Source: a virus. Taken from it: a stretch of DNA of 64,000 nucleotides. Below the pieces are notes generated by a model. That model did not search any database, was not told the origin of the DNA, and worked only from the letters and a program-made list of their open reading frames with translations. Location: IMG/VR virus record IMGVR_UViG_3300028864_000019, positions 1-64,000 of that record. One strand, given 5' to 3'. A program made the position numbers and the translations under genes. The first letter of the stretch is position 1. The number at the start of each line of letters is the position of its first letter. Below are positions 4,318-64,000 of this stretch, piece by piece.

Positions 4318-5271
4318 CTAAAATTTATATTGTTTCAATATATCTACTATAGCATCAGCAGTCCAACCATTGCCAATAGCTTTTATTCTAGCTTTATCAC
4401 TTAATCCATATGTATATCCATCTGGTAATGTCTGAAGTCGTTCTAACTCGGTAATAGTAAACTTTCTGACTATGCCATCATAATAAACACATATATCACA
4501 ACTACAATCTAAGGTGTTTGATTTGTCTTTTATAACTCGTCCACGTCTTGTCTTACTTGTTGGGAACTGAAGATTAACTCCATCTCCATTCTCTGCCACA
4601 ATATACCCTTGCTTAGTAGCTTGCCTTATTCTTACCTCACCATTAACAACATCTATTAAATTATAGCATTTCTCACTTATGTTAGGATCTATTAATAATC
4701 CTTTATATTTTATGTAATTGCTTGTATCAACTTTTTCTAATATGTCTAATAATTTAATTCGTTTATCTTTTGGCGGTTCTATATATGTACTTGTCCAATA
4801 TAAACGTGGTCGGTTTTGTGCTGAAATAAGTTTACTATTAATCAATGTATATTCACATTTTAAATAATCACTTATAACGTCCCTCCATTCTTTTTTCATT
4901 TCAACATTTTCAAGTAGAAATTGCACATTAGGATTATTATATTTTCTAATTAAATCTAAAACTCTTACATAATCAAAAAATAATTTACTTCTAATATCTT
5001 CAAAATTTAAACATAACCCATTTTTTGAAAACCCCTGACAAGGTGAACCTCCAATAAGTAAATCAATCTTGGGTAAACTTTGTATTAATTCTTTATCTAT
5101 TTTAGTTATATCACCTAATCTAATTATATCGTCAAAGTTATTTTTACTAATATGTATTGCATTTTCATCAATCTCACTTGCATAATACTTATCCACATCA
5201 ATTCCTGCTCTTTGGCATACTAATCTTCCTGTACTGTGTCCATCGAATAAACTTACTATATTTATTTCCAT
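4318..5271 (-). CDS. DNA (cytosine-5) methyltransferase, copy 1
   Basis: 317 residues. Motif I is LFDGHSTG (8-15), motif IV is GSPCQGFS with catalytic Cys78, motif VI is ENV (121-123), motif VIII QNRPRLYW (152-159), motif IX ELERLQTLPDGYT, and motif X ends IGNGW. All residues needed to transfer a methyl group from AdoMet to C5 of cytosine are present. The specificity region between VIII and IX is short. It is most like copy 3 (6274-7176). It is the last of three tandem methyltransferase genes and no restriction endonuclease is adjacent, which fits self-protection of phage DNA. The recognition site cannot be read from sequence. Confidence 0.92.
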   Translation of the reverse strand: MEINIVSLFDGHSTGRLVCQRAGIDVDKYYASEIDENAIHISKNNFDDIIRLGDITKIDKELIQSLPKIDLLIGGSPCQGFSKNGLCLNFEDIRSKLFFDYVRVLDLIRKYNNPNVQFLLENVEMKKEWRDVISDYLKCEYTLINSKLISAQNRPRLYWTSTYIEPPKDKRIKLLDILEKVDTSNYIKYKGLLIDPNISEKCYNLIDVVNGEVRIRQATKQGYIVAENGDGVNLQFPTSKTRRGRVIKDKSNTLDCSCDICVYYDGIVRKFTITELERLQTLPDGYTYGLSDKARIKAIGNGWTADAIVDILKQYKF

Positions 5272-5282
5272 ATATTTTCTCC

Positions 5283-6245
5283 TTAGTTGAAATTATTTTC
5301 TATGTATTCTTTTAATTTATCTGCAATTGCTTGTACTACGTTTAAACTCATAGCATTACCCATCATTCTATATGCTTGTGTGTCACTAATAACTATTCTA
5401 TATGTATCAGGTAATCCTTGAAGTTTTAAGCATTCTATAGGAGTTAACCTTCTAACATTAGTTTTGTTTACTGGTTTGTATTCTGTAGATATGTAATTAT
5501 CAGTATCAGCTCTATGCATCTTGTGCATTGTTGAAGTCAACGTTCTAGCTATAGGTAAATTAATCTCCATCTTGCCACTAATCCAACCTTTTGTTCCGGG
5601 ACTCATTATACAATCATACATTTTTTGAGTTAAATAATATTTATCATCAACACTAGGTTCTAATAAATCTTGCATTGTTAATTTTAGTTCTACTGGCTTT
5701 GGAAATTCAAAATTAAATTCACCTAAGTCTTTTCTTTGACCTATTATATACCATCTTCTTCTTGAATGTGGAATTCCAAATTCTGATGTATTTATTAATT
5801 GATATTTTATATTATAATTTTCTTGCATCATTTCTATAACTACCTTAAAATCTTCTCCATTATTACTACTAGATAAATTTCTAACATTTTCAAATATGAA
5901 CCAGCTAGGTAATTTTTCATTTAATATTCTCATGTAATCAAAGAACAAGCAACTTTCTTCACCTTTTAAACCCTTAACTTTGTTATCTTCCGACCATGTT
6001 TTAGACATCATAGAAACTTGAGTACAAGGTGATCCACCAATTAAAATATCAAAATTTGGCAATTCTTTTTCGTTAATTTTTGTAATATCTCCATAATTAA
6101 TTCTATTAGGGAAATTAGCTTTATAGTTTTTAATTGCAAACTTATCAAATTCAGAATATCCTATATTTTCACAACCTATATTATCTAACGCAATACCTCC
6201 AATTCCTGTTCCTGCAAATAATTCAAAATACTTTTTCTTTTCCAT
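5283..6245 (-). CDS. DNA (cytosine-5) methyltransferase, copy 2
   Basis: 320 residues. Motif I is FAGTGIGG (10-17), motif IV is GSPCTQVS with Cys74, motif VI ENV (119-121), motif VIII HSRRRWYIIGQR (160-171), then ECLKLQGLPDTYR and motif X MGNAMSLNVV. Classic Dcm type, clearly less related to its two neighbours than they are to each other. PCTQ replaces the commoner PCQG after the catalytic Cys. GAAAGGAAG precedes the ATG. It lies 11 nt from copy 1, so they are co-transcribed. Confidence 0.93.
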   Translation of the reverse strand: MEKKKYFELFAGTGIGGIALDNIGCENIGYSEFDKFAIKNYKANFPNRINYGDITKINEKELPNFDILIGGSPCTQVSMMSKTWSEDNKVKGLKGEESCLFFDYMRILNEKLPSWFIFENVRNLSSSNNGEDFKVVIEMMQENYNIKYQLINTSEFGIPHSRRRWYIIGQRKDLGEFNFEFPKPVELKLTMQDLLEPSVDDKYYLTQKMYDCIMSPGTKGWISGKMEINLPIARTLTSTMHKMHRADTDNYISTEYKPVNKTNVRRLTPIECLKLQGLPDTYRIVISDTQAYRMMGNAMSLNVVQAIADKLKEYIENNFN

Positions 6246-6273
6246 TCTTTTAACTTCCTTTCTTTTTATGTAT

Positions 6274-7176
6274 TTAATTTATTTTTAATTCTTTAATAAT
6301 ATGTACAATTGTATCAATATTCCATCCGTTCCCTATGGCTTTATATCTATTACCACATGAAACCCCTTTTACATTTGTGTAATTGTCTGGTAATCCTTGT
6401 AGCCTTTCACACTCAATTTCTGTGAATCTTCTTAATCCGTAATCATCTTTAATTATATTTGGTGCTGATCTATCTCTTCTAAAGCAATGAGGAACTACAG
6501 TATTTGATTTACCATACTTTATACTCTTATTGTAGAAATCATATATAGGAGTTCCTTTTGACCATTTACATGAGACTTCTCTACAAACATCAGCATGTAA
6601 TAATTGATGCTCTTTGCAATAATGTCCTTCCTCAACCTTTTGCTTCTCTATAATATCATCTATGTATATTTCTTTATCATTTATATTTTGTATGTATTCT
6701 ATGTTTGTCCAATAATAACGCTCTCTATTTTGTGCTGAAAATAAATTTGAATTTATAAGCTTACCTTTAATTCCTATGTAGTCATTAATTACCTCAATCC
6801 ATTCTTGTTTCATTTTCACATTCTCTAATAAAAATTTAACATTGGGATTATTATTTTCTTTTATCCAATTCAAGATATTAATAAATTCAAAAAATAATTT
6901 ACTTTGTTTATGTTCAAAATTCAATCCATTCCCTATTCTTGAAAATCCTTGACATGGACTTCCTGCTAATATTAAATCAATTTTGGGCAAGTTCCAATTT
7001 TTCCACTCAGTAACGTCTCCTAATTTATTTTTAACATCTTGTGGATAATTTTTATCAGCTATTAACATTGCATCTTTATCAATCTCACTTGAATAATAAT
7101 TATCTACTTCAATCTGTGCTTTTTCTAATACTACTCTTCCACAACTTATTCCATTAAACAAACTTAATACATTCAC
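6274..7176 (-). CDS. DNA (cytosine-5) methyltransferase, copy 3
   Basis: 300 residues. Motif I LFNGISCG, motif IV GSPCQGFS with Cys75, ENV (118-120), QNRERYYW near 149, ECERLQGLPDNYT and IGNGWNIDTI. It has the same architecture as copy 1 (Dnmt3-like compact form common in phages) but a divergent central region, so a different target is likely. It is the first gene of the methyltransferase operon. Its leader shows the shared box TTTTATTTGGTTATTAATAA. Confidence 0.92.
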   Translation of the reverse strand: MNVLSLFNGISCGRVVLEKAQIEVDNYYSSEIDKDAMLIADKNYPQDVKNKLGDVTEWKNWNLPKIDLILAGSPCQGFSRIGNGLNFEHKQSKLFFEFINILNWIKENNNPNVKFLLENVKMKQEWIEVINDYIGIKGKLINSNLFSAQNRERYYWTNIEYIQNINDKEIYIDDIIEKQKVEEGHYCKEHQLLHADVCREVSCKWSKGTPIYDFYNKSIKYGKSNTVVPHCFRRDRSAPNIIKDDYGLRRFTEIECERLQGLPDNYTNVKGVSCGNRYKAIGNGWNIDTIVHIIKELKIN

Positions 7177-31556: not shown

Positions 31557-32972
31557 TTAAATTGCTTGTCCTAAATTTTCATTATGTAATAATTCTTTTT
31601 GTTTTATGTATTCATCAGAATATTTCCATTTCAAAGGTGTTCCATCTTCTAATTTACCACAATAAATTCTTGTTCCATTACAACATGAGTTTATATGTCT
31701 ATAAGATATTATTTTGTAATATTCTCCTGCTTCTTTAATCGTATTAAATTTTTTATTTGTAGTAACGCAAACATATTTTTCTTTACAATATACAATTGTT
31801 TTTGAATCATATGTATAATCTTGATTATACAATTCTTTTAATTTGTTTTCTATATCATATTTTATGTATTCTTCAGGAGTTAAATCTTCTATGTATTTCC
31901 ATTGTAATTTTGTTCCATCAAATAGTTTTCCACTATATTTTTGTTTCCCTTGACAACAATTTCCTATATGAGCATTATCTATATGATAAAATTTCCCAGC
32001 TCCTGCGATAGAATTAAAAACAATATTAAATGTTGTACAAATCACTTTTTTCTTAACTTCTTTTTTAATATAATTTTCTATATTCATTTTTTTAATACTA
32101 TTTATTTTATTTTGAATATCTATATCTGTCATATGTATATAATCTTCATAATAAGCCCAAATCAATCTTGTTCCATCAGGAAATCTACCCGATGTTGATT
32201 GTAATCCCCTGCAACATTTTCCTATCGTTCCACTGTCTTTTCTAAAACCACAATAGGTATTGGCATCACCTATACTTAAAAATATTTTTCTATTGTTAAG
32301 ACAAACTACCTTTTTAAATTGTACATTTAGTTCTATATCTTCCATTCGTTCTTCCGCTTTATGTATTGTATAATCATTTAAGTACATCCATACCATTTTT
32401 TCACCTGTAATTGGATTTAATCCTGCATATCTATATTCTCCTTTACATGCTAAACTAATTGTTTTTCTGTCTATATTATATTTTTTACCAGCTTGTTTAA
32501 GTGATAAAAAGGTTTCATTTGTGTTAACACATATAACAGGTAAAGATACTTCCAATTTAGATATTCTATTTTTATTTTTAGATTCCTCAGTATGTTGAAA
32601 TCCACAACCACTTCCACCGCCAATATTTTTATTGTATCCATATTTCCTATTATCAGAATCATAATAAGAAATCCAACATTGCTCTTTGATATTTAATTCT
32701 TCTTGGGAAAAAGCAATATCAAATACTTCTACTATTTCAAAAGCTTTAAATCCATGTGTTTTTATAGAACTTAATAAATGTTTATTTGCGTCTAATTTTC
32801 TTTTTAATCTACCTTTATGGTAATTATATACTCTTTCAATTCCTGTACCTTTGTAATTATATCTTTTATAAAAACCACCTTCTTGTGCGGTTTGTCCAAT
32901 ATAAACTTTGCCATTAACAATATTTGTTATTCTGTATATAATCCCATACACTTCTAAATTCCCTATTTTCAT
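31557..32972 (-). CDS. GIY-YIG endonuclease with NUMOD-type repeats
   Basis: 471 residues from the ATG at 32972, which follows GAAGGTG. GIY-YIG nuclease at 9-100: GIIYRI, KVYIGQT and EQCWISYYDS with the catalytic Glu. Next a NUMOD3-like GFQHTEESKNKNR. Then four repeats of about 60 residues, each with VxCxxxxxxFxSIxxA... and W-K/A-Y (for example KKVICTTFNIVFNSIAGAGK), the NUMOD1-like DNA-binding modules of homing endonucleases. It should nick DNA at a long site set by the repeats. It is free-standing. A partial relative lies at 63020-64000. Confidence 0.88.
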   Translation of the reverse strand: MKIGNLEVYGIIYRITNIVNGKVYIGQTAQEGGFYKRYNYKGTGIERVYNYHKGRLKRKLDANKHLLSSIKTHGFKAFEIVEVFDIAFSQEELNIKEQCWISYYDSDNRKYGYNKNIGGGSGCGFQHTEESKNKNRISKLEVSLPVICVNTNETFLSLKQAGKKYNIDRKTISLACKGEYRYAGLNPITGEKMVWMYLNDYTIHKAEERMEDIELNVQFKKVVCLNNRKIFLSIGDANTYCGFRKDSGTIGKCCRGLQSTSGRFPDGTRLIWAYYEDYIHMTDIDIQNKINSIKKMNIENYIKKEVKKKVICTTFNIVFNSIAGAGKFYHIDNAHIGNCCQGKQKYSGKLFDGTKLQWKYIEDLTPEEYIKYDIENKLKELYNQDYTYDSKTIVYCKEKYVCVTTNKKFNTIKEAGEYYKIISYRHINSCCNGTRIYCGKLEDGTPLKWKYSDEYIKQKELLHNENLGQAI

Positions 32973-33081
32973 GTCTGCACCTTCTTCTATTAATTTATTG
33001 CCAAACCATATAAAGTTAATTATTTTCAAATTTAAGGGAAGCAATTATACTTCCCACATTACCTATAAATAACCCATTTAT

Positions 33082-34824: not shown

Positions 34825-34944
34825 TTATCTCGTATATGTTTTAAATATTTCATTTTCTCTAATCTCGCATTTAGTTTGTAGTCTACAAAGCGATACAACG
34901 AATAATACTGTAAAACTTATTATTATTCCTAAAATTATTAACAT
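34825..34944 (-). CDS. Small single-span membrane protein (39 aa)
   Basis: MLIILGIIISFTVLFVVSLC followed by a charged RLQTKCEIRENEIFKTYTR. Signal-anchor type with Cys near the membrane face. AAGGGGG lies in the end of the upstream gene. Role unknown. Confidence 0.68.
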   Translation of the reverse strand: MLIILGIIISFTVLFVVSLCRLQTKCEIRENEIFKTYTR

Positions 34945-34957
34945 TATTATTTCCCCC

Positions 34958-35074
34958 TTATTTGATTATTTTTATCTCATATAGAGTTTCATTATCTATA
35001 TCATTAACTGTATGTAGCCCTAATAACTTATCTAATACTATTAACCCTATTACTATCAATATTCCTTCTAACAT
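34958..35074 (-). CDS. Small single-span membrane protein (38 aa)
   Basis: MLEGILIVIGLIVLDKLLGL then an acidic tail. The start follows GAAGCGTGTAAG; the stop overlaps the next gene's ribosome-binding site, making a membrane-peptide pair with 34825-34944. Role unknown. Confidence 0.65.
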   Translation of the reverse strand: MLEGILIVIGLIVLDKLLGLHTVNDIDNETLYEIKIIK

Positions 35075-35080
35075 CTTATC

Positions 35081-35728
35081 TTACACGCTTCCTTTCTTCC
35101 TATTTATTAATTTTACAAATTTCTCTTGTTCATTTAATTCATATTCTGCATAAGATTTTGATACTGAATTTATTAAGTGTTGCTTTTGTTGTAATGATTT
35201 ATATTTAATTTTAACAGTGATTCCTTTTATCTTAGGCAATGTATCAGTTATTCCATAAATATGATCTTCATTAACTTCAATAATATTATCTTTATGTTCA
35301 TGTGAAGGGCTTCTCATATATTCTACTTTTAATATTTCGTCCACTTCATTCAATATATCACCGTTCATTTGTAATTGTCTTTTGTGATATCCGTTTTCAT
35401 AATTCAACTGGGTTAAATGATTATCTTGATTACTTATTTTCTTTTCTTGTACTTGAAATCCACCTAGTTGTCTAACTAGCATTTCCATTGTTTTTAGTTC
35501 ATTCTTTGCCTCTCTCCGAGCTTGTCTAAGTTTTTGTAATGACTTCGCTAGTTGCCACCCTGTATATAAATCGAATTTCCCTAATCCTTCTATCTTATGT
35601 AGTAAATCTTGTTGTACATCATTAAAGACTTTTTCTTTTATCTTAAGTTTATTATAATATTCTTTAGCTTCTATGATATTTGTATTAATTTGATTAGCGT
35701 AACTTGTAGCTTTACACAATTTAATCAT
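35081..35728 (-). CDS. Coiled-coil protein (215 aa)
   Basis: Long helices (AKSLQKLRQARREAKNELKT) then a beta-rich segment DTLPKIKGITVKIKYKSLQQ. A structural or scaffold role is possible, but the family is unknown. It has its own promoter (35770-35798), and AAAGAAAGG precedes the ATG. Confidence 0.68.
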   Translation of the reverse strand: MIKLCKATSYANQINTNIIEAKEYYNKLKIKEKVFNDVQQDLLHKIEGLGKFDLYTGWQLAKSLQKLRQARREAKNELKTMEMLVRQLGGFQVQEKKISNQDNHLTQLNYENGYHKRQLQMNGDILNEVDEILKVEYMRSPSHEHKDNIIEVNEDHIYGITDTLPKIKGITVKIKYKSLQQKQHLINSVSKSYAEYELNEQEKFVKLINRKKGSV

Positions 35729-35769
35729 TTCCTTTCTTTATATATTAATTTGTTTTGTATTATATATTA

Positions 35770-35835: not shown

Positions 35836-36774
35836 TTAGTCCGTTATTTCAACTTTATAGTTAATCATAGCTATGTATAGGTGTTCAGGAATCTGATCTT
35901 TATAATCATTTGCTACTTGCTTAATTCGATTTTCCTTAAATTCTTTATAAGATTGAAATGCTTCTATTTTAGTATCAAATGTCCCAAGATATATACTTTT
36001 ATTATTCTTATCTGTGCCTTTTGCTCTAATTTTCCCATCTTTCTTATTTAAACTAACACCAATAGGAAAATCCCCTCTATAATTCTTTCTATTAATAAAC
36101 AAATTATTTATCCTTTCTGGAACAAAACAACAAGTATCAGGTGAATATATTTTATTTCCCTTAATTAGAATATCTTTATCAAGACACATTTTCTCTCCTT
36201 CTATCTCATAATAATTTTCTTTATACCAGCGTACAAAATTCTCAAAATTGTACCATTCTTCTGCTACAATACAATCTTTATATGTAGGATATTTTTCTTT
36301 ATACTTTTTACTATAACATCTAGTCATCATACTATTCCACTTATAGTATTCTTTACTTGTACTATTGTTTTCGTTTAAAACACTTACCTTATGGGCAATT
36401 CTATTAGTACAATTACTAACTTTTCCTTTTTTAAAATTGTCATATTGCGTTTTAACTCTATATCCACCTTCAAATTCAACTATAATATTTTGTGTATTAA
36501 TGTACTCTACAATAGTCATTTTAATACCATGATTGTTATATTTTACTTCTCCAGTTCTATCAATAAGACATGCCCTTTTAGAATTTTGTTTTTCATAGTC
36601 TGAATTTTTTATTAATCCTCTTTTAAAATTATTATATGTTTTATTATAAGATATGTAACCATCTTCAAACTCAATATCTACATCGTTACATCCTCGATAT
36701 TCTTTAATCCACATCCTTAGCCCTTGAGTGTTAATATTTTCTTCACCTATTCTATTTAATAATTTTTCTTTCAT
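35836..36774 (-). CDS. AP2-domain homing endonuclease-like protein, copy 1
   Basis: 312 residues. The N-terminus has two related repeats of about 55 residues (EFEDGYISYNKTYNNFKRG and EFEGGYRVKTQYDNFKKG). The middle has KWNSMMTRCYSKKYKEKYPT and DKDILIKGNKIYSPDTCCFV, an HNH-like nuclease core often found in phages. A C-terminal AP2/ERF DNA-binding domain (PIGVSLNKKDGKIRAKGTD to YLGTFDTKIEAFQSYKEFK) follows. Predicted DNA endonuclease with site preference. AAAAGGAG precedes the ATG at 36774. Paralogue at 43186-44145 has a different N-terminus. Confidence 0.78.
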   Translation of the reverse strand: MKEKLLNRIGEENINTQGLRMWIKEYRGCNDVDIEFEDGYISYNKTYNNFKRGLIKNSDYEKQNSKRACLIDRTGEVKYNNHGIKMTIVEYINTQNIIVEFEGGYRVKTQYDNFKKGKVSNCTNRIAHKVSVLNENNSTSKEYYKWNSMMTRCYSKKYKEKYPTYKDCIVAEEWYNFENFVRWYKENYYEIEGEKMCLDKDILIKGNKIYSPDTCCFVPERINNLFINRKNYRGDFPIGVSLNKKDGKIRAKGTDKNNKSIYLGTFDTKIEAFQSYKEFKENRIKQVANDYKDQIPEHLYIAMINYKVEITD

Positions 36775-36809
36775 TATTTTTCTCCTTTTCAATTTACTTT
36801 TAAACTAAC

Positions 36810-36849
36810 AAGAGAGTAATTCCAAGATTTCTCCCAGTCTTACTCTCTT
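36810..36849 (-). terminator. Hairpin after the peptide gene
   Basis: AAGAGAGTAA and TTACTCTCTT form a perfect 10-bp stem with a 20-nt loop that can pair further. A short GTTAGTTT follows on the minus strand. Lies downstream of the exported-peptide gene and may end the MazF-like/receptor/peptide transcript, or be a regulated site. Confidence 0.68.
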
Positions 36850-36877
36850 ATTGATACCGACTTCTAATTAATAATGA

Positions 36878-36997
36878 TTATCCACGGTCAGAAGGACCAG
36901 CCCATGCAACTAATGTAGTAACGATCATTGATGTAATTATTATAGCCATCATCATAAAGTATTTAACTCTAGCTTTTGTGTTTTTGCTTATCTTCAT
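36878..36997 (-). CDS. Candidate exported signalling pre-peptide (39 aa)
   Basis: Translation: basic start MKISKNTKARVK, hydrophobic core YFMMMAIIITSMIVTTLVAW, then AGPSDRG and stop. The AWA tripeptide fits the A-x-A rule for signal peptidase I, which would release GPSDRG, a hexapeptide. This architecture and size match propeptides of Rap/Phr, AimR/AimP and related RRNPP systems. Very strong ribosome-binding site (GGAGGAGAGGTG) before the ATG. The gene directly follows an all-helical protein gene in the same direction, as receptor and peptide genes do. Function inferred, not shown; a plain small membrane protein is the alternative. Confidence 0.55.
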   Translation of the reverse strand: MKISKNTKARVKYFMMMAIIITSMIVTTLVAWAGPSDRG

Positions 36998-37090
36998 TTT
37001 TGTTCACCTCTCCTCCATATGTACTATTAGCATAAGATTTACTTATACTAAATTGTAAATATGGAAGAAATTATCTTTTGTTTATTTAAT

Positions 37091-37744
37091 TTAGCTTACT
37101 TTATTATTTCTTTTTTCTTCTTCTTTTAATAACAATACATTTTTATATAATGCAACATCTGTTTTTTTAATTTCTTTTTCAAAACATTCAAATTGATCTT
37201 GATATTGTTTATTATTGTTATGTAATAATATGTCCATTATTTGTAGGACAATATTATCATTACGCTCTAGCAAACTTATATTAAATTTTGCTGTTAATTT
37301 ATTAAAATAACCCATTGTATCATTTGGAGTGCATGTTTTAAACGCATCATAATATTCCTCATATGCTTTTATTTTCTCCTCATTGCTCAATTCATCTTTA
37401 TAACTATCTATATAATTATTAAGGGCTTTACTATACTTGTGTTTATTCTCTTTTTTATAATTAGGAATTGAATTCAATTCATCTAATAGTAATTTCGAAT
37501 GTAATTTTGCTGATTGTAAGTGTTCAGGCTTTTTGGTTAATAGTTCTGCCACAACTAATCCATTTAATAACAATCTCCTGTTTTCTATTTTTTTTAATTT
37601 GTCGTGCATTTGAAGAAATAATTTTTGTAATTCAATTATTGCTTTATCTATATCACCTTTTTTACCATTAACCCCGTCCCAAATATCATATGCCTCATCT
37701 AATTTCTTTTTAAATAGTCGTTCAATGGCATCTTCATTTATCAT
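37091..37744 (-). CDS. All-helical protein, possible TPR-type peptide receptor
   Basis: 217 residues, no beta strand or membrane span. Repeating helix pairs (IDKAIIELQKLFLQMHDKLK, SAKLHSKLLLDELNSIPNYK, KIKAYEEYYDAFKTCTPNDT, VLQIMDILLHNNNKQYQDQF) suggest a TPR-like solenoid, but the TPR consensus is weak. No N-terminal helix-turn-helix is seen, so it resembles Rap-like rather than AimR/PlcR-like receptors. It sits 31 nt after the MazF-like gene and 93 nt before the peptide gene. It could be a peptide receptor, an antitoxin for the MazF-like protein, or both. Tentative. Confidence 0.45.
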   Translation of the reverse strand: MINEDAIERLFKKKLDEAYDIWDGVNGKKGDIDKAIIELQKLFLQMHDKLKKIENRRLLLNGLVVAELLTKKPEHLQSAKLHSKLLLDELNSIPNYKKENKHKYSKALNNYIDSYKDELSNEEKIKAYEEYYDAFKTCTPNDTMGYFNKLTAKFNISLLERNDNIVLQIMDILLHNNNKQYQDQFECFEKEIKKTDVALYKNVLLLKEEEKRNNKVS

Positions 37745-37775
37745 CTTAATGCAACCCCTTTAATCCTCATATATT

Positions 37776-38546
37776 TTACATGACTACAGATTCATCTCCT
37801 GTTTTATATATTTTATAATAATCTCTATAGTCTAATCCATTTTCTTTACAAATGTCTTCTAGTTCCATTAAAAATATTTCTCTTTCTTCTAATAAATGTT
37901 TGACTAAACTTTCAGTCTTTCTTCTTGCTATGGCTTTTTCATAAGTGTGTATGTCTTCTAATTTTTCTTCTAATCTAATTCTTATTTCTTTATTTAATTT
38001 CTCCAATGGCGTTTTCTCTTTTAAATCTCCTAATTGAATGTTTCGGGCATTATCTATGCGTTTCATGGTCAATTCGTCCACAGTACCAACATAAGTAAGC
38101 AAATCATATCTAACGTCTATAGTTGTTATTTGTTCTGTAAGAACTAGAGATTTTTCTTTTAAACCAAAATTCTCAATCTCGACGTGAACAGGAATATTAG
38201 CTTTTGACGATACTTTGCTTGTGATTGGGAATCCATTTACGATAGTTGAATATTGATTACTTAAACTATTTGAGGTTATTAAAAATGGACGTATATTACA
38301 TTGGCAACTACCATTCCTTTTCCCTAAATTAACATACCAAATTTCACATCTTTTTGCTCTTTTAATCTCTCTATATTTTGTTTCGTTATTTAATTTATTA
38401 TTACTATAACTACTCATTAGTTGATCAATTCTTTTGGTGTCCACAACTCCTCCTTTATTTGGAACATCATTTATAGCTATTTCTTTTTCTGCCAATTTAT
38501 CTCTTAATTCTTTTAATCTATTATCATTTTCTAATAAAGTTAGCAT
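37776..38546 (-). CDS. MazF/PemK-like protein with long extensions
   Basis: 256 residues from the ATG at 38546, which follows AAGGTGG. The core at about 62-170 has CEIWYVNLGKRNGSCQCNIR, RPFLITSN, FPITSK, VHVEIENFGLKEKSLVLTEQ and DRYD-like ITTIDVRYDL, the MazF order: GEIWYVDLG, RPxLI, PITS, EQI. The usual EQIRTID Arg is Thr here, so RNA cleavage may be altered. It carries an extra 60-residue N-terminus and a coiled-coil C-terminal tail of 85 residues, so it is over twice the normal 115 aa. No classic MazE antitoxin is adjacent. Three promoters lie upstream. Confidence 0.75.
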   Translation of the reverse strand: MLTLLENDNRLKELRDKLAEKEIAINDVPNKGGVVDTKRIDQLMSSYSNNKLNNETKYREIKRAKRCEIWYVNLGKRNGSCQCNIRPFLITSNSLSNQYSTIVNGFPITSKVSSKANIPVHVEIENFGLKEKSLVLTEQITTIDVRYDLLTYVGTVDELTMKRIDNARNIQLGDLKEKTPLEKLNKEIRIRLEEKLEDIHTYEKAIARRKTESLVKHLLEEREIFLMELEDICKENGLDYRDYYKIYKTGDESVVM

Positions 38547-38636
38547 TACGACCACCTTCCGCTTAATTAATTCCTTCTTAATTTCCAATTAAAATTACTT
38601 TTTTATATACTTTAATTTGTTTCATCTCATGTTTAA

Positions 38637-38665
38637 ATTTTACTGCTAATTCCATTTCTTGTCAA
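38637..38665 (-). promoter_or_regulatory. Promoter 3 of the MazF-like module
   Basis: TTGACA, 17 nt, TAAAAT on the minus strand; nearest of three promoters to the MazF-like gene. Confidence 0.78.
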
Positions 38666-38737
38666 TACCTTTTTCCAATTATTTATAATTTATTTTTAAC
38701 TTCTTTATTAATTTGTTTTGTCAATTCCTATATTCTT

Positions 38738-38766
38738 ATATTACTACTTATTTCCAAACCTGTCAA
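38738..38766 (-). promoter_or_regulatory. Promoter 2 of the MazF-like module
   Basis: TTGACA, 17 nt, TAATAT on the minus strand. Downstream, TTGACAAAACAAATTAATAA carries another motif copy that could be an operator. It has no matching -10 of its own. Confidence 0.75.
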
Positions 38767-38827
38767 TAACCTTTTTAAATATTTTTTGTTTATACAATAA
38801 TTTGTTTAATATCTTGTCCATGAGTTA

Positions 38828-38856
38828 ATAATACACCTACCTGAATACAATGTCAA
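38828..38856 (-). promoter_or_regulatory. Promoter 1 of the MazF-like module
   Basis: TTGACA, 17 nt, TATTAT on the minus strand, about 280 nt before the gene. A TACATTAATTTATT motif lies just upstream. It sits directly after the 3' end of the integrase-like gene. The 300-bp gap 38600-38930 otherwise contains only these promoters. Confidence 0.78.
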
Positions 38857-38933
38857 CAACTATTTAATAAATTAATGTAATAAGTTTTAGACTTTAAAAT
38901 ATAAAAGAAAGACTAGAAATTACTTCTAGTCTA

Positions 38934-40091
38934 CTACTCTATATCAACAGCGTCAAAGCCGATTGATGCACAAATATCTTTAACTGTTTGATATGAGTTT
39001 GGATCTATTACTTTAAACTCTGCTGTTTTAGCTTTAAAACTTCCTGTTTGTCGCTTGATAACATTATCTCCAGTCAAACTCTCATATCTCTTTCTCATCA
39101 TAGCGACTGATGTAGCATTAATTTTAGATTCATTGAAAATCTTAATTATAGCTTCAATATCATATGAACTAATCTTTCTCTCTTTTCTAATTTGTAATAA
39201 TAATTCAAACTCTCTAGTAAATAATAAATCGTTAAAAGAAATTCTATCTATTTTTTCTGCATCTATTACTTCTTCTTTTCGTTTTTTATTTAATAATTTA
39301 AACGCAGTAAACACTCTACTATTTACAGTATTATAATTAGCTATTTCTCTCGTATTAATTACATATGCGTCAGATTGGAATAATTGTTTTATTGATTCTT
39401 CTTCTACAATACTATCTACTTCTAATAAAAACTCTATAAATCTATCATCAATCGGCATCAATGTTATAAACTCTTCATTCTCATTATAAACACTGATAAA
39501 TTTGTTTACTACATCTATATCTTTATATCTCAATCGTCTCATATAAATCACTTCTCTACCTAAAACACCATATCGAGCTAATAATAGTGGCTTTATATTT
39601 TCTGAACCAACACACTCTTTCATTTCTCTCATTAAACTATAAAATTCATCCATATTGTATAATTTAGTTTGAAGTAGTTTTTTACTAGATTTTAGAGTCT
39701 TCATAGATTCTACTCCGGACAATGGGTTAACAGATATATCCCCTTTTTCAATATAGTATTCAAAATACTTATTAACAAACAGTTTTATAGTTCCCATTGT
39801 ACTCTCCATAGCATATATGAAGCTATTTAGCATAGATACTACTTCGTTACTCTTAAAGTCTTTTAAATCTTTATTTTTAGCAACTTCATAATCATGGATA
39901 TTGTTATTATAAACCGACCATAAAGGCTTTTTAGTTATTTCGTCCTCATAAGTATTATTTAACCACACAATCTTATCTATTTGAAATTGGTCATATTCAC
40001 CTAAGATTCTTTGCTTTTCCTTTTCTGTTGCTTCAGGTGTATCTCTTTCGTATTTTTGACCTATAAATTCTAAATTTTCTTTAAGCAACAC
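38934..40091 (-). CDS. Integrase-like DNA-binding protein, probably without catalysis (385 aa)
   Basis: A SAM-like core-binding region (NSFIYAMESTMGTIKLFVNK, YYIEKGDISVNPLSGVESM) is followed by a fold like a tyrosine recombinase (ARYGVLGREVIYMRRLRYKD resembles the box around the first catalytic Arg). The later H-x-x-R and final Tyr boxes are not recognisable, so it is likely a DNA-binding relative, not a recombinase. GTG start after GGAGGTG, overlapping the end of the upstream DGQHR/ParB-like gene by 11 nt, so the two proteins are probably made together. Confidence 0.55.
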   Translation of the reverse strand: MLLKENLEFIGQKYERDTPEATEKEKQRILGEYDQFQIDKIVWLNNTYEDEITKKPLWSVYNNNIHDYEVAKNKDLKDFKSNEVVSMLNSFIYAMESTMGTIKLFVNKYFEYYIEKGDISVNPLSGVESMKTLKSSKKLLQTKLYNMDEFYSLMREMKECVGSENIKPLLLARYGVLGREVIYMRRLRYKDIDVVNKFISVYNENEEFITLMPIDDRFIEFLLEVDSIVEEESIKQLFQSDAYVINTREIANYNTVNSRVFTAFKLLNKKRKEEVIDAEKIDRISFNDLLFTREFELLLQIRKERKISSYDIEAIIKIFNESKINATSVAMMRKRYESLTGDNVIKRQTGSFKAKTAEFKVIDPNSYQTVKDICASIGFDAVDIE

Positions 40092-41517
40092 GTAGCACCT
40101 CCACTGTTAAATTTGCAAAATAATTATACACATCTTTATAATTACACGTATTTGGACTATTCTTTAATTTTAATTTTTTTAGTTCAGATTCTGGAATTGA
40201 ATATATATTATCAACAATCTCATCTATCCTATTATAATCTCCTAGTACTCTCATTGTATTTGCAATCGCAAGATAACCAACAAACATATTGCAGTCTAAA
40301 AGACTACTGTTATTTTTCATTTCTTCTATATCATCATTAAAATATTTAAATTTCAATGTATCAATTAATTCATCAATTGTTGAACCCAATTTTTTTGATA
40401 TATCTCTAACTAATCCTTTTTTCTCTACAGGAATTTCGGTTAATGTTAAAGCATCTAATAATATAGTTTTATAAGTTAACTTTCTTACCATTTTACGTTC
40501 TTCAAAATTTAATGCAATTTCGTCTTTTAATACTGTTGAATTCTCTTCAATTAATTTCAAGAAATCTACATCATCGCCTTGTTTAAATCCTTTAATAAAT
40601 TCAGGATTTGTATCTGATCTCTCGAATATTTGTCTGATTAATTCTTGAGCATCAGATAAACTTCTCAATACAACCCTAATATCTAGACCACCTTGTAATA
40701 TAGCACCGTTATTTTGTGCTTTATACTGTTCTACAGCTTGATATACTGCTAACATTCTATGAAAACCATCTAACATATCTATAACTGTGAAAGTCTCACT
40801 ATCTAAATCATAATTCGGACTTACATATAAAGTTCCTACATTTGGGTATTTTTCTTCATCTATTGATTCATAATGGCGATTAGGTTCAAAATTTTCCTCT
40901 CCTTCAGCAAGTCTAATATTCACAATTATTTGAGTATCTTCTAATTTTTTGGTTTTAGACAATAATAAATTTGTCATTGCGTCAACATTTTTCTGATTAA
41001 TATCAATAATTCTAACTGAATCGTCTTTAGTCCCTAACGATTTTGTCTTGTATGCTCTCTGAGATAATTTGTTATATCTGAATAGTACAAATTTAATATA
41101 ATTATAGATTTGTTCATATGTGATTCGCCCAACATAGTTATAATTATCTACTTTTTGCATAAAAGGCAATACTACTTGTGTTACCTTCTTCTCTACATTA
41201 GTAAAACTATTATAGTCTAAAATATCTGTATCGCTAAAATATTTTCTATAGTTTAATTTTTCTAATGCTAAAACCTCATAGCAAACCTTAGTAATAGCAA
41301 TTTTTTCTTCTTTAGATAATTTGTTTAATTTAACTGAACCGTCTAAAAACAATCCTGCTGTGATGTTTGTATTCAAATTCTTTTTAGCCAATTCTACATT
41401 AATTGATTTAATCAGCCCTTTATTTTTAAATTCTTTATTAACCACATTTTCTAATTCTTTATTTAAATTGTCCTGACTATAAATCATGACTTCTTGTTGT
41501 CCTTGTTTAAGTTCCAT
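40081..41517 (-). CDS. DGQHR/ParB-like protein (478 aa)
   Basis: DMLDGFHRMLAVYQAVEQYK at 248-267 matches the DG(Q/F)HR loop of DGQHR/DndB and ParB-Srx nucleotide-binding folds; IRVVLRSLSDAQELIRQIF and RSDTNPEFIKG follow as in those families. The flanks are mostly helical. ParB-type proteins bind CTP and centromere sites; DndB-type proteins regulate DNA modification. It is the first gene of a two-gene operon with its own strong promoter (41573-41601) and an isolated terminator upstream. A partition or replication role is possible. Confidence 0.58.
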   Translation of the reverse strand: MELKQGQQEVMIYSQDNLNKELENVVNKEFKNKGLIKSINVELAKKNLNTNITAGLFLDGSVKLNKLSKEEKIAITKVCYEVLALEKLNYRKYFSDTDILDYNSFTNVEKKVTQVVLPFMQKVDNYNYVGRITYEQIYNYIKFVLFRYNKLSQRAYKTKSLGTKDDSVRIIDINQKNVDAMTNLLLSKTKKLEDTQIIVNIRLAEGEENFEPNRHYESIDEEKYPNVGTLYVSPNYDLDSETFTVIDMLDGFHRMLAVYQAVEQYKAQNNGAILQGGLDIRVVLRSLSDAQELIRQIFERSDTNPEFIKGFKQGDDVDFLKLIEENSTVLKDEIALNFEERKMVRKLTYKTILLDALTLTEIPVEKKGLVRDISKKLGSTIDELIDTLKFKYFNDDIEEMKNNSSLLDCNMFVGYLAIANTMRVLGDYNRIDEIVDNIYSIPESELKKLKLKNSPNTCNYKDVYNYFANLTVEVLRVA

Positions 41518-41970: not shown

Positions 41971-42046
41971 TCTCGCACCCCTTTAATTATTTTTTGATTT
42001 TATATATTAAAACAAATTAATGGTTTAAACTTATTTTCAATTTCAT

Positions 42047-43185: not shown

Positions 43186-44145
43186 TTAATCATCAATATC
43201 TACTTCATATCTATACATTGAATCATAAAGTTTCTTCGGTATTTTATCTTTATAATAATCTGCTACTTCTTTAATGTGTTTTTCCTTATATACTTTATAT
43301 CTTTGAAATGCTTCATTTTGATCTGAATATGAACCAAGATAAACTTTATTATTTAATAAGGTATTCCTACATGTTGATATAAACTTACCATTATCATCAT
43401 CAAAATATACCCCTATGGGATATTTTCCTCTTGCTTTATCACATTTAGTAAATAAACTATTAATTTTTTGTGGTACAAATACACATGTTTCTGGAGAGTA
43501 TATTTTATTTCCTTTACATAGAATATCCTTATCCAATGCCATAATCTCATTATTTATTTCATAATAATTCTTTTCGTACCACGTTGCAAAGTTTTGGAAA
43601 TTATGCCACGATTTATCTGCTACGCAATATTTATAAGTTGGTGTTTTTAATTTTTGGTTCTCATTGTAGCATCGGGTCAGCATGCTTTTCCATGTCATAA
43701 ATTGCTTATTATATTTTAATTTAGAATAATCAACATGATATTTACCCTCTCCTAAGTAGCCTATATTAAATACAAATTTGTGATATGGGTTTATAATAGT
43801 CCCTAGTTTAAAACTATTATAAGTTTTATGCTTTACAATAATACCATCTTCGAATTTAACATTTATATCGTTTTGATTTATATAGTTGATTATTTCCATT
43901 TTTTCATTTACTTTATTATAATTTGTTTCACCCGTTCTATCTTTAAATTTATTTAGTAATGCACATTCTGGGCATCCATGACCACATAACAAGTTTAATG
44001 GAATAGATTTCCATTCATGATTACATGACTTGTCCTTTACTAAAATTTTAGTTGTGCTATTAATATACTCTTCGATCACCTCAATATTCGGATTAATAAC
44101 AAACATTTCTTCTTTAAATTGTTCTGTAGTTTTTCTTTTCCCCAT
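43186..44145 (-). CDS. AP2-domain homing endonuclease-like protein, copy 2
   Basis: 319 residues. The N-terminus has a zinc-knuckle treble clef (SCNHEWKSIPLNLLCGHGCP, CALLNK) unlike copy 1, then one beta repeat (KFEDGIIVKHKTYNSFKLG). The core TWKSMLTRCYNENQKLKTPT and DKDILCKGNKIYSPETCVFV plus the C-terminal AP2 domain (YPIGVYFDDDNGKFISTCR to YLGSYSDQNEAFQRYKVYK) match 35836-36774. A DNA endonuclease with swapped N-terminal recognition modules is the best reading. GAAGGAG precedes the ATG. Confidence 0.78.
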   Translation of the reverse strand: MGKRKTTEQFKEEMFVINPNIEVIEEYINSTTKILVKDKSCNHEWKSIPLNLLCGHGCPECALLNKFKDRTGETNYNKVNEKMEIINYINQNDINVKFEDGIIVKHKTYNSFKLGTIINPYHKFVFNIGYLGEGKYHVDYSKLKYNKQFMTWKSMLTRCYNENQKLKTPTYKYCVADKSWHNFQNFATWYEKNYYEINNEIMALDKDILCKGNKIYSPETCVFVPQKINSLFTKCDKARGKYPIGVYFDDDNGKFISTCRNTLLNNKVYLGSYSDQNEAFQRYKVYKEKHIKEVADYYKDKIPKKLYDSMYRYEVDIDD

Positions 44146-61066: not shown

Positions 61067-61148
61067 TTTGATCTCCTTATATGCTTTTCAGGATTAAGCA
61101 TAACCATATATTTTTTACTTTTAATATTAATTTGTTTTATTCCTATGT

Positions 61149-62822: not shown

Positions 62823-63035
62823 TTAACTAACTTGATTTTTAAATGCAAAATATAATGATTTACTTTTAAAATATTTGTGACAATCAAACTTAGTATATAC
62901 TTTCCAATTCCCCTTAATACATGCTATTTGTTTGTCTGTTGGCTTGTCTTTCTTCCATTTAGCATTCTTATCTATAAAACTACTTCCATATGTATAAGCC
63001 ATATTATCAACATTATCTACTAACAATATTCCCAT
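62823..63035 (-). CDS. Small protein resembling a helicase tail (70 aa)
   Basis: MAYTYGSSFIDKNAKWKKDK then PTDKQIACIKGNWKVYTKFD. A WKxDKPTDKQ segment is common at the C-terminal end of phage helicase-like proteins. It overlaps the GIY-YIG gene end by 16 nt, and the ribosome-binding site is unclear, so the start is uncertain. Confidence 0.45.
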   Translation of the reverse strand: MGILLVDNVDNMAYTYGSSFIDKNAKWKKDKPTDKQIACIKGNWKVYTKFDCHKYFKSKSLYFAFKNQVS

Positions 63036-64000
63036 ACTAAAAGAGTTCCATCTTCTAAACTACCACATGATTTTTGATGACTTAAACAACATTGACTTAT
63101 ACCACTTCTATCACAATTATAAAACTCTGAGGCTTCTCCTATACTGTTAAATTCTTTATTAGTTGTAATACATTTTACTTTCTTTTTTCTTTTTATACTT
63201 TGTAATTCAAGTGCCTTTTCTTTTGAATTCGCTTCATATATTTTTAAGTTTATATCAGCTTGTGTCATTTTTATAAAATCACTATATCTCACCCAAATAC
63301 AAGGTTTATTATTCAGCATTCCTGCATATCTTTGTTTATTATCACAACATTTTAATATTGTACCTATACTTATATTTTTTATATCTTTTTCATTATTAAT
63401 TATATCTGATGGTCTATCATATATAATTTTTGTTTCAATATTTACAATTCTTTTATCATTAATTGAACATTCCAATTCATATATTTTATCTTTTATCTTT
63501 TCAATATCTTCATTAGTTAATTTAGAATATTCTGATTCGTATATAAAATACATTTTTATACCTTTACCTTGTACTATATAAGCATTATTCATTGCCTTAT
63601 ATATACTCTTATAACTAGTATTGTAATATATTTTTGCAGTCTCTATAAGTTCAAAATGCTTATTATCTATCACATTAACTATTTGTTTTGCATTGGGATT
63701 TTTATTTCCATCAAATACTCCTTGTTTCAATTCTGACATTCTTTTTCTAGTTTCTTCATTTTGTACACCGTTATGTCCACCATCATCATTATTATAACCA
63801 TATAATCTATTATTGCTCTTATATAATACTATGTAGGATTTTTCTTTAATATCTAATTCATCTTTACTAAAAGCATAATCAATAATATCTAATTTAAAAT
63901 TATCTACTCCATATTTTTTAGCAGAATCCTTTAAATGCTTATTCTTTGAATATATCCACCATTCTCCTGCTGGATATCTCCTATTAAACTTATTTTTAGT
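63020..64000 (-). CDS. GIY-YIG/NUMOD endonuclease, 5' end outside the window
   Basis: The frame stays open from the stop at 63020 to the right edge (327 codons). Beyond the internal ATG at 63739 it continues upstream as RRMSELK preceded by GYNNDDGGHNG, YIVLYKSNNRLYGY and FKLDIIDYAFSKDELDIKEK, the C-terminal half of a GIY-YIG nuclease like 31557-32972 (catalytic Glu in DIKEKSYI). The C-terminus holds NUMOD-like repeats (KKVKCITTNKEFNSIGEASE). The N-terminal GIY and YIG motifs should lie past 64000. Confidence 0.82.
   Translation of the reverse strand, partial: TKNKFNRRYPAGEWWIYSKNKHLKDSAKKYGVDNFKLDIIDYAFSKDELDIKEKSYIVLYKSNNRLYGYNNDDGGHNGVQNEETRKRMSELKQGVFDGNKNPNAKQIVNVIDNKHFELIETAKIYYNTSYKSIYKAMNNAYIVQGKGIKMYFIYESEYSKLTNEDIEKIKDKIYELECSINDKRIVNIETKIIYDRPSDIINNEKDIKNISIGTILKCCDNKQRYAGMLNNKPCIWVRYSDFIKMTQADINLKIYEANSKEKALELQSIKRKKKVKCITTNKEFNSIGEASEFYNCDRSGISQCCLSHQKSCGSLEDGTLLVWEYC

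Follow-up and report, generated by a model that had tools for sequence, protein, structure and literature searches.

Peptide communication and the toxin MazF are already joined in the systems closest to the one considered here. In phages phi3T and SPbeta, arbitrium is linked to MazEF (PMC10769878; PMC10516654), and it is only recently that arbitrium was shown to act through the host MazEF. In phi3T, the host MazF is bound and inactivated by AimX and YosL and is set free by phi3T_93, which binds MazE; as AimP rises, the balance changes so that MazF activity promotes lysogeny (PMC10769878). In Rap-Phr and other RRNPPA systems, a receptor with a tetratricopeptide repeat (TPR) fold is encoded beside its pro-peptide (PMC10075063, PMC9765709). 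We analysed a stretch of 64,000 nucleotides (hereafter the window, positions 1 to 64,000 of the 111,869-bp IMG/VR virus record IMGVR_UViG_3300028864_000019), in which a MazF-type toxin, a TPR-like protein and a small exported-type peptide are encoded one after the other. We lean, by a small degree, towards reading these genes as a cassette with which SPbeta-like phages communicate by peptide, through a MazF of their own. The cassette comprises the following features:

37776..38546, minus strand: MazF/PemK endoribonuclease of 256 aa with helical N- and C-terminal extensions (Pfam, PDB, PHROG)
37091..37744, minus strand: TPR-like helical-repeat protein of 217 aa, candidate peptide receptor and MazF partner (AlphaFold2, Foldseek, homologues)
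36878..36997, minus strand: exported-type peptide of 39 aa, ending in VAWA followed by GPSDRG, candidate signal precursor
about 36806..36852, minus strand: stem-loop after the peptide gene, probable terminator (-21.4 kcal/mol, z -5.5)

The original prediction had described three minus-strand open reading frames (ORFs) in a row followed by a hairpin, the last of them a 39-aa pre-peptide with an A-W-A site before GPSDRG, and all of these are present. The arrangement is not confined to the window, since scans with YopQ and MrpR profiles yielded three more distinct phage contigs (L016, from the elephant-feces metagenome 3300001598, L042 and L043), which have the order yopQ-mrpR-mazF-TPR-peptide in common with it. 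The gene order is thus conserved in four distinct phages, with a further, swapped copy on a 218-kb contig (L049), as had been expected of a genuine module. The apical GGAGNAATCTTG of the stem-loop after the peptide gene is conserved in three phages.

The peptide gene begins 93 bp past the 217-aa gene in the window and encodes MKISKNTKARVKYFMMMAIIITSMIVTTLVAWA followed by GPSDRG. Its counterparts are MTKARFKALIITAIVTISTVVMTVVAFA followed by TTGSGRG in L043 (and L049), MKKILSYALALAVFVAPTVIRILSSGGGWG in L042 and MKKVIRIILTIIPIVVMIDPPAIMM in L016. A conserved peptide gene with a changing C-terminus had been anticipated, and the four phages carry four different tails (GPSDRG, TTGSGRG, SSGGGWG and DPPAIMM). 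These polar, Gly-rich or Pro tails are variable and the hydrophobic part is retained, as in Phr/AimP-type precursors, and the co-variation of tail and receptor is visible by eye among the four families (n=4). A basic start, a hydrophobic core and a ribosome-binding site (RBS) accompany all four, so that each receptor gene has beside it a predicted small Sec-type pro-peptide. The four phages have 187 genes that encode 100 aa or more, and to these we applied a rule that asks for an ORF of 20-50 aa within the next 130 nt, with an RBS, basic residues at its start and a hydrophobic core free of charges. Five genes passed, namely all four TPR genes versus 1 of the 183 others. This contrast is large, its exact odds being soft because the rule was set with the peptides already known. 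Between the window and L043, the peptides share 50% amino acid identity, and the non-synonymous (dN, 0.39) and synonymous (dS, 1.14) divergence gives a dN/dS of about 0.34, which indicates that the gene is under coding constraint.

The 217-aa protein had been predicted to have a helical-repeat fold, and the modelling bears this out. The AlphaFold2 model built from a four-sequence alignment (predicted local distance difference test, pLDDT, 89.7; predicted template-modelling score, pTM, 0.81) consists of ten long helices in hairpins, and Foldseek matched it to the TPR domains of kinesin light chain, LGN and 3gw4 with template-modelling (TM) scores of up to 0.58/0.64; a single-sequence fold (pLDDT 51) was uninformative. 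The L016 protein matched Pfam TPR_8 with an E-value of 0.0018, under the cut-off, and the family profile matched a consensus-TPR design in PDB (E 0.014). On the four-sequence model, the family can confidently be predicted to form a TPR-like solenoid. The window protein is 41% identical to that of L043, 30% to that of L042 and 23% to that of L016, with local alignment scores over shuffles of z 38, 18 and 5.3, respectively. The receptors are 172-217 aa long across the cassette phages, and no helix-turn-helix (HTH) domain was found in the 217-aa protein. A tblastn search of phages and plasmids with this protein, the MrpR-like protein and the peptide gave no useful match. MT835476 (L047), which has a weak TPR match, proved to be an ordinary TPR protein with neither MazF nor peptide and was set aside.

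The mazF gene starts with an ATG at 38546, preceded by an RBS, and its product matches Pfam PemK_toxin (E 9e-20) and MazF/EndoA in PDB (E 3e-14) and falls in the extended phage MazF families PHROG 1936/35650. The B. subtilis residues R25 and T48 correspond to R89 and T112 (259-aa numbering) in the window MazF and are invariant in the four phages; the MazF fold with the catalytic Arg and Thr that marks type II MazEF toxins is thus present. The absence of a classic MazE, already proposed from the first look at the sequence, also stands: no coding-strand ORF of at least 30 aa lies in 38589-38933, and the neighbour of the toxin gene is TPR-like. Hence, the cassette shares with type II MazEF/PemIK systems the MazF/PemK catalytic domain and its usual conserved residues, but differs from them in lacking MazE, in placing the toxin gene first, in the helical extensions of the toxin and in having a TPR-like candidate antitoxin; its membership of MazEF is limited to the toxin. 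In all four phages, 17-31 bp separate the mazF gene from the TPR gene (31 bp in the window), and no TPR neighbour was found at the other phage MazF loci examined.

This tight spacing without a MazE would also suit an unusual toxin-antitoxin module, in which the TPR protein simply counters MazF as its antitoxin and a non-signalling membrane peptide (a leader, a small toxin or a holin-like peptide) is the product of the small ORF. The peptides are indeed short and hydrophobic, a clear A-X-A is seen in two of the four, and other small membrane ORFs lie close by (34825-35074, two successive ORFs of 38-39 aa). However, the small ORF always comes right after the TPR gene, and its tail varies and its hydrophobic part is constant in the Phr/AimP manner. 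We therefore regard a plain toxin-antitoxin module as unlikely, though not to be discounted lightly, and continue to favour a peptide signal.

The cassette lies immediately downstream of yopQ-mrpR, that is, of the lysogeny-repressor genes, a neighbourhood that the original prediction had not noticed:

40081..41517, minus strand: YopQ homologue of 478 aa, which anchors the SPbeta-like lysogeny locus (tblastn and PHROG)
38934..40091, minus strand: MrpR/YopR-like repressor of 385 aa (Pfam, PHROG, position)

The first product matches SPbeta yopQ (tblastn, E 2e-11) and PHROG 5732 (E 4e-29) and is 67% identical to YopQ of L042, 64% to that of L043 and 35% to that of L016. The second matches Pfam MrpR_N_CB (E 6e-5, under the curated cut-off) and a PHROG integrase family (E 6e-10), and its gene follows yopQ in the position of SPbeta yopR. 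The window thus has the succession that defines an SPbeta-type locus, YopQ and then an MrpR-like inactive tyrosine recombinase, with MrpR called from a sub-threshold Pfam match and position. From the sequences of these two genes, the window phage can be placed in the SPbeta-like lineage as a distant member. At the corresponding place, there is no mazF in SPbeta itself or in Geobacillus E3.

We then compared how the cassette and its neighbours have diverged. The L049 contig carries the L043 cassette, with two differences in 5.3 kb from mazF on and none within the three genes. Its promoter region has diverged, and its yopQ-mrpR genes are another allele (28-31% and 36% identity, respectively, to those of the window, L042 and L043), the break lying directly before mazF. 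With about 28-38% identity to the others, the yopQ-mrpR pair at 6238-8785 in L049 is a third allele that has diverged deeply, and the cassette next to it is of the L043 type. For YopQ and MrpR, the closest pair is L042-L043 (82 and 75%); for MazF and TPR, it is window-L043 (49 and 41%, compared with 38 and 31% for L042-L043). The tree of MazF and TPR thus conflicts with that of yopQ and mrpR, which implies that MazF and TPR travel together. In summary, the cassette looks, as far as sequence comparison can tell, like a functional unit that is exchangeable and diverges fast.

Two further explanations have to be weighed against this pattern. The first is that the peptide and the TPR protein form a signalling pair aimed at MrpR/YopQ, MazF being a separate effector or a moron that shares the operon. 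The cassette adjoins yopQ-mrpR in all relatives, and arbitrium acts on phage regulation. Nevertheless, the cassette moves between yopQ-mrpR alleles with its MazF included, and the receptor follows the tree of MazF rather than that of MrpR, so that a target in the lysogeny machinery appears improbable. We favour MazF over MrpR as the target of the receptor because of the tight mazF-TPR coupling and the shared tree. The second explanation concerns the HNH endonuclease genes:

35836-36774 in the window: HNH endonuclease gene
43186-44145 in the window: HNH endonuclease gene
13298-14260 in L043: HNH endonuclease gene

An HNH gene lies downstream of the cassette in the window, L043 and L049, and inside the block exchanged between L043 and L049, as would be the case if it spread its flanking genes as cargo and the three cassette genes had no common function. 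Yet no HNH gene accompanies the cassette there in L042 and L016, and we hold mere homing cargo to be very unlikely; the HNH gene may aid the exchange of the cassette by homing or co-conversion. A coiled-coil-like gene of 215 aa, which the two small membrane ORFs at 34825-35074 follow, is also conserved downstream of the cassette (35081-35728 in the window, 13249-13872 in L042). It was rejected as a part of the cassette, as its product is closer to that of L042 (55%) than to that of L043 (41%), opposite to MazF and TPR, and the gene is not near the L016 cassette.

Upstream of mazF, the cassette is set apart from mrpR by a terminator and is preceded by three promoters, each followed by a repeated element:

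38910..38932, minus strand: terminator between mrpR and the cassette (10-bp stem and T tail)
38828..38856, minus strand: promoter P1, TTGACA-17-TATTAT (11/12 match)
38797..38807, minus strand: repeated element after P1, AAACAAATTAT, candidate repressor operator
38738..38766, minus strand: promoter P2, TTGACA-17-TAATAT (sequence scan)
38708..38718, minus strand: repeated element after P2, AAACAAATTAA, candidate repressor operator
38637..38665, minus strand: promoter P3, TTGACA-17-TAAAAT (11/12 match)
38612..38622, minus strand: repeated element after P3, AAACAAATTAA, candidate repressor operator

The promoters stand in tandem, with exact TTGACA boxes and 17-bp spacers, and are predicted to be strong. 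They make up three of the ten sites returned by a strict scan (exact TTGACA and a second box of the form TA..[AT]T) in the whole 112 kb. P1 and P2 are kept in L043, L042 and L049, and P3 in L043 and L049; in L016, P1 is seen as TTGACT..TATTAT. After each of P1-P3 comes AAACAAATTA (the shared element can also be written ACAAATTAATRTATAAA), which is part of RACAAATTAATRTATAAA, an intergenic repeat found phage-wide. There are 10 copies of AAACAAATTAA in the window versus 1.0 expected, and the long form occurs eight times in the record versus none in simulated sequence. Copies of RACAAATTAATRTATAAA lie near promoters or RBSs at 42010-42020, 38612-38718, 35745-35755, 61127-61137 and elsewhere. In SPbeta, the repeat ACAAAWAATATGTATA is common to the upstream regions of aimR, yopM and yopV and resembles the window element; these three genes are reported to carry the MrpR-bound SPBRE (PMC10516654). 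Because of this likeness, the window repeat is a candidate MrpR-like operator, an analogue of SPBRE, proposed from its resemblance to ACAAAWAATATGTATA.

How does this locus compare with the described systems? Like arbitrium, the cassette belongs to the same lineage as judged by YopQ/MrpR, occupies the same neighbourhood, has a TPR-type receptor gene followed by a small exported-type peptide gene and, as we propose, would use MazF as the lysis-lysogeny effector, as phi3T does. Unlike arbitrium, it has a receptor of 172-217 aa without HTH, no AimR was found and no AimX was seen, and its MazF comes from a phage gene within the same operon, located downstream of mrpR and not upstream of yopM. With Rap-Phr, it shares adjoining receptor and pro-peptide genes, a TPR fold (from AlphaFold2 and Foldseek, with the sub-threshold TPR_8 match in L016 only), a receptor without DNA-binding domain and a small basic and hydrophobic precursor with a short variable tail. 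It differs in that its receptor has no detectable homology to those of Rap-Phr and RRNPP systems and no annotated three-helix-bundle domain, always comes after mazF and falls short of the 250-500 aa used by RRNPP_detector (PMC10075063). Although the architecture fits, we do not claim membership of RRNPP or arbitrium, because of this length and of the negative result for AimR. Extracellular death factors likewise join a peptide signal and MazF in one idea, but they are said to act on MazF itself, and published claims that they enhance MazF activity (PMC5930309) would allow our peptide to do the same, with the TPR protein as a cofactor. Here, however, there is a dedicated peptide gene that follows the gene of a receptor-like protein with the usual receptor fold, and there is no sign of a contact between peptide and MazF; we give direct action on MazF hardly any credence.

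The best reading would thus be an HTH-less, RRNPP-like peptide receptor acting on the phage MazF and doing the job that arbitrium does through the host MazEF in phi3T. The host would export the peptide, trimming would leave its last six or seven residues (GPSDRG here), and the product would accumulate with the number of producing cells and then re-enter cells. There it would bind in the groove of the TPR protein, which we picture as a short receptor of the Rap kind, lacking a DNA-binding domain and serving as the antitoxin or inhibitor of the adjacent MazF. With scarce peptide, the TPR protein would hold MazF and the lytic programme would proceed; with abundant peptide, MazF would be freed, translation slowed and lysogeny favoured. 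MrpR may repress or time the cassette via the repeat at its promoters. The lineage would then have swapped a phi3T-type circuit for a MazF of its own, held or released according to an exported peptide.

Several points weigh against this reading. Its weakest step is the direction of the switch, which is a guess from analogy. The Foldseek E-values (0.04-0.3, those for natural TPR proteins being 0.04 or more) are weak, and a TPR fold is compatible with many kinds of ligand. No Rap or PlcR match was found for the 217-aa protein in Pfam or NCBIfam, and a comparison with AimR (hhalign probability 0.2%) gave no detectable sequence link, so that by sequence the protein is not AimR. A clear signal-peptidase A-X-A site is confined to the peptides of the window and L043/L049, and another processing route would be needed in L042 and L016; their shorter peptides recall Rgg/SHP-type precursors, which are processed without signal peptidase I. 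There are only four independent cassette families. AimR gave no match in five records (G000-G004) at E 0.1 (SPbeta control, 3e-255), which is no proof of its absence because virus records may be incomplete. The link to arbitrium and MazEF drawn in the original prediction has gained weight from the yopQ-mrpR neighbourhood, and the interpretation as a whole is partly supported. In summary, the cassette is real and its role in signalling is what we infer from it; the finding is strengthened by the divergent relatives and by its place at an SPbeta-type lysogeny locus.

Other observations concern the record as a whole. A second contig (L002) matches the window over 20 kb at 99.96%, with the differences all clustered at the far end of the alignment, and therefore gives no evolutionary information. 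Two scans of genome contigs found no relative, Rfam gave no match and PADLOC no relevant match. Three genes in succession at 4318-7176 resemble DNA methyltransferases (by eye, from their N-termini), and large genes at 31557-33044 and 63020-64000 (running past the window end) have GIY-YIG-type starts (IYRITNxxNxKVYIGQT) and are probable homing endonucleases.

If the proposed reading is true, related phages combine a toxin, a sensor and a signal in a single operon that can be exchanged. This toxin-antitoxin system, under peptide control and without MazE, would extend phage communication beyond AimR and explain why receptor searches limited to TPR proteins of 250-500 aa miss such systems. A bolder form of it, which we find quite possible if a shade short of probable, is a second, arbitrium-independent system in which an HTH-less mini-TPR receptor, as the antitoxin of the phage MazF, is switched by a secreted hexapeptide and allele swaps give rise to phage 'dialects'. 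If it works as proposed, the cassette would, as a compact three-gene system, be suited to the direct study of the peptide gating of MazF in B. subtilis, and it would point to the MazF branch as a central output of phage communication.
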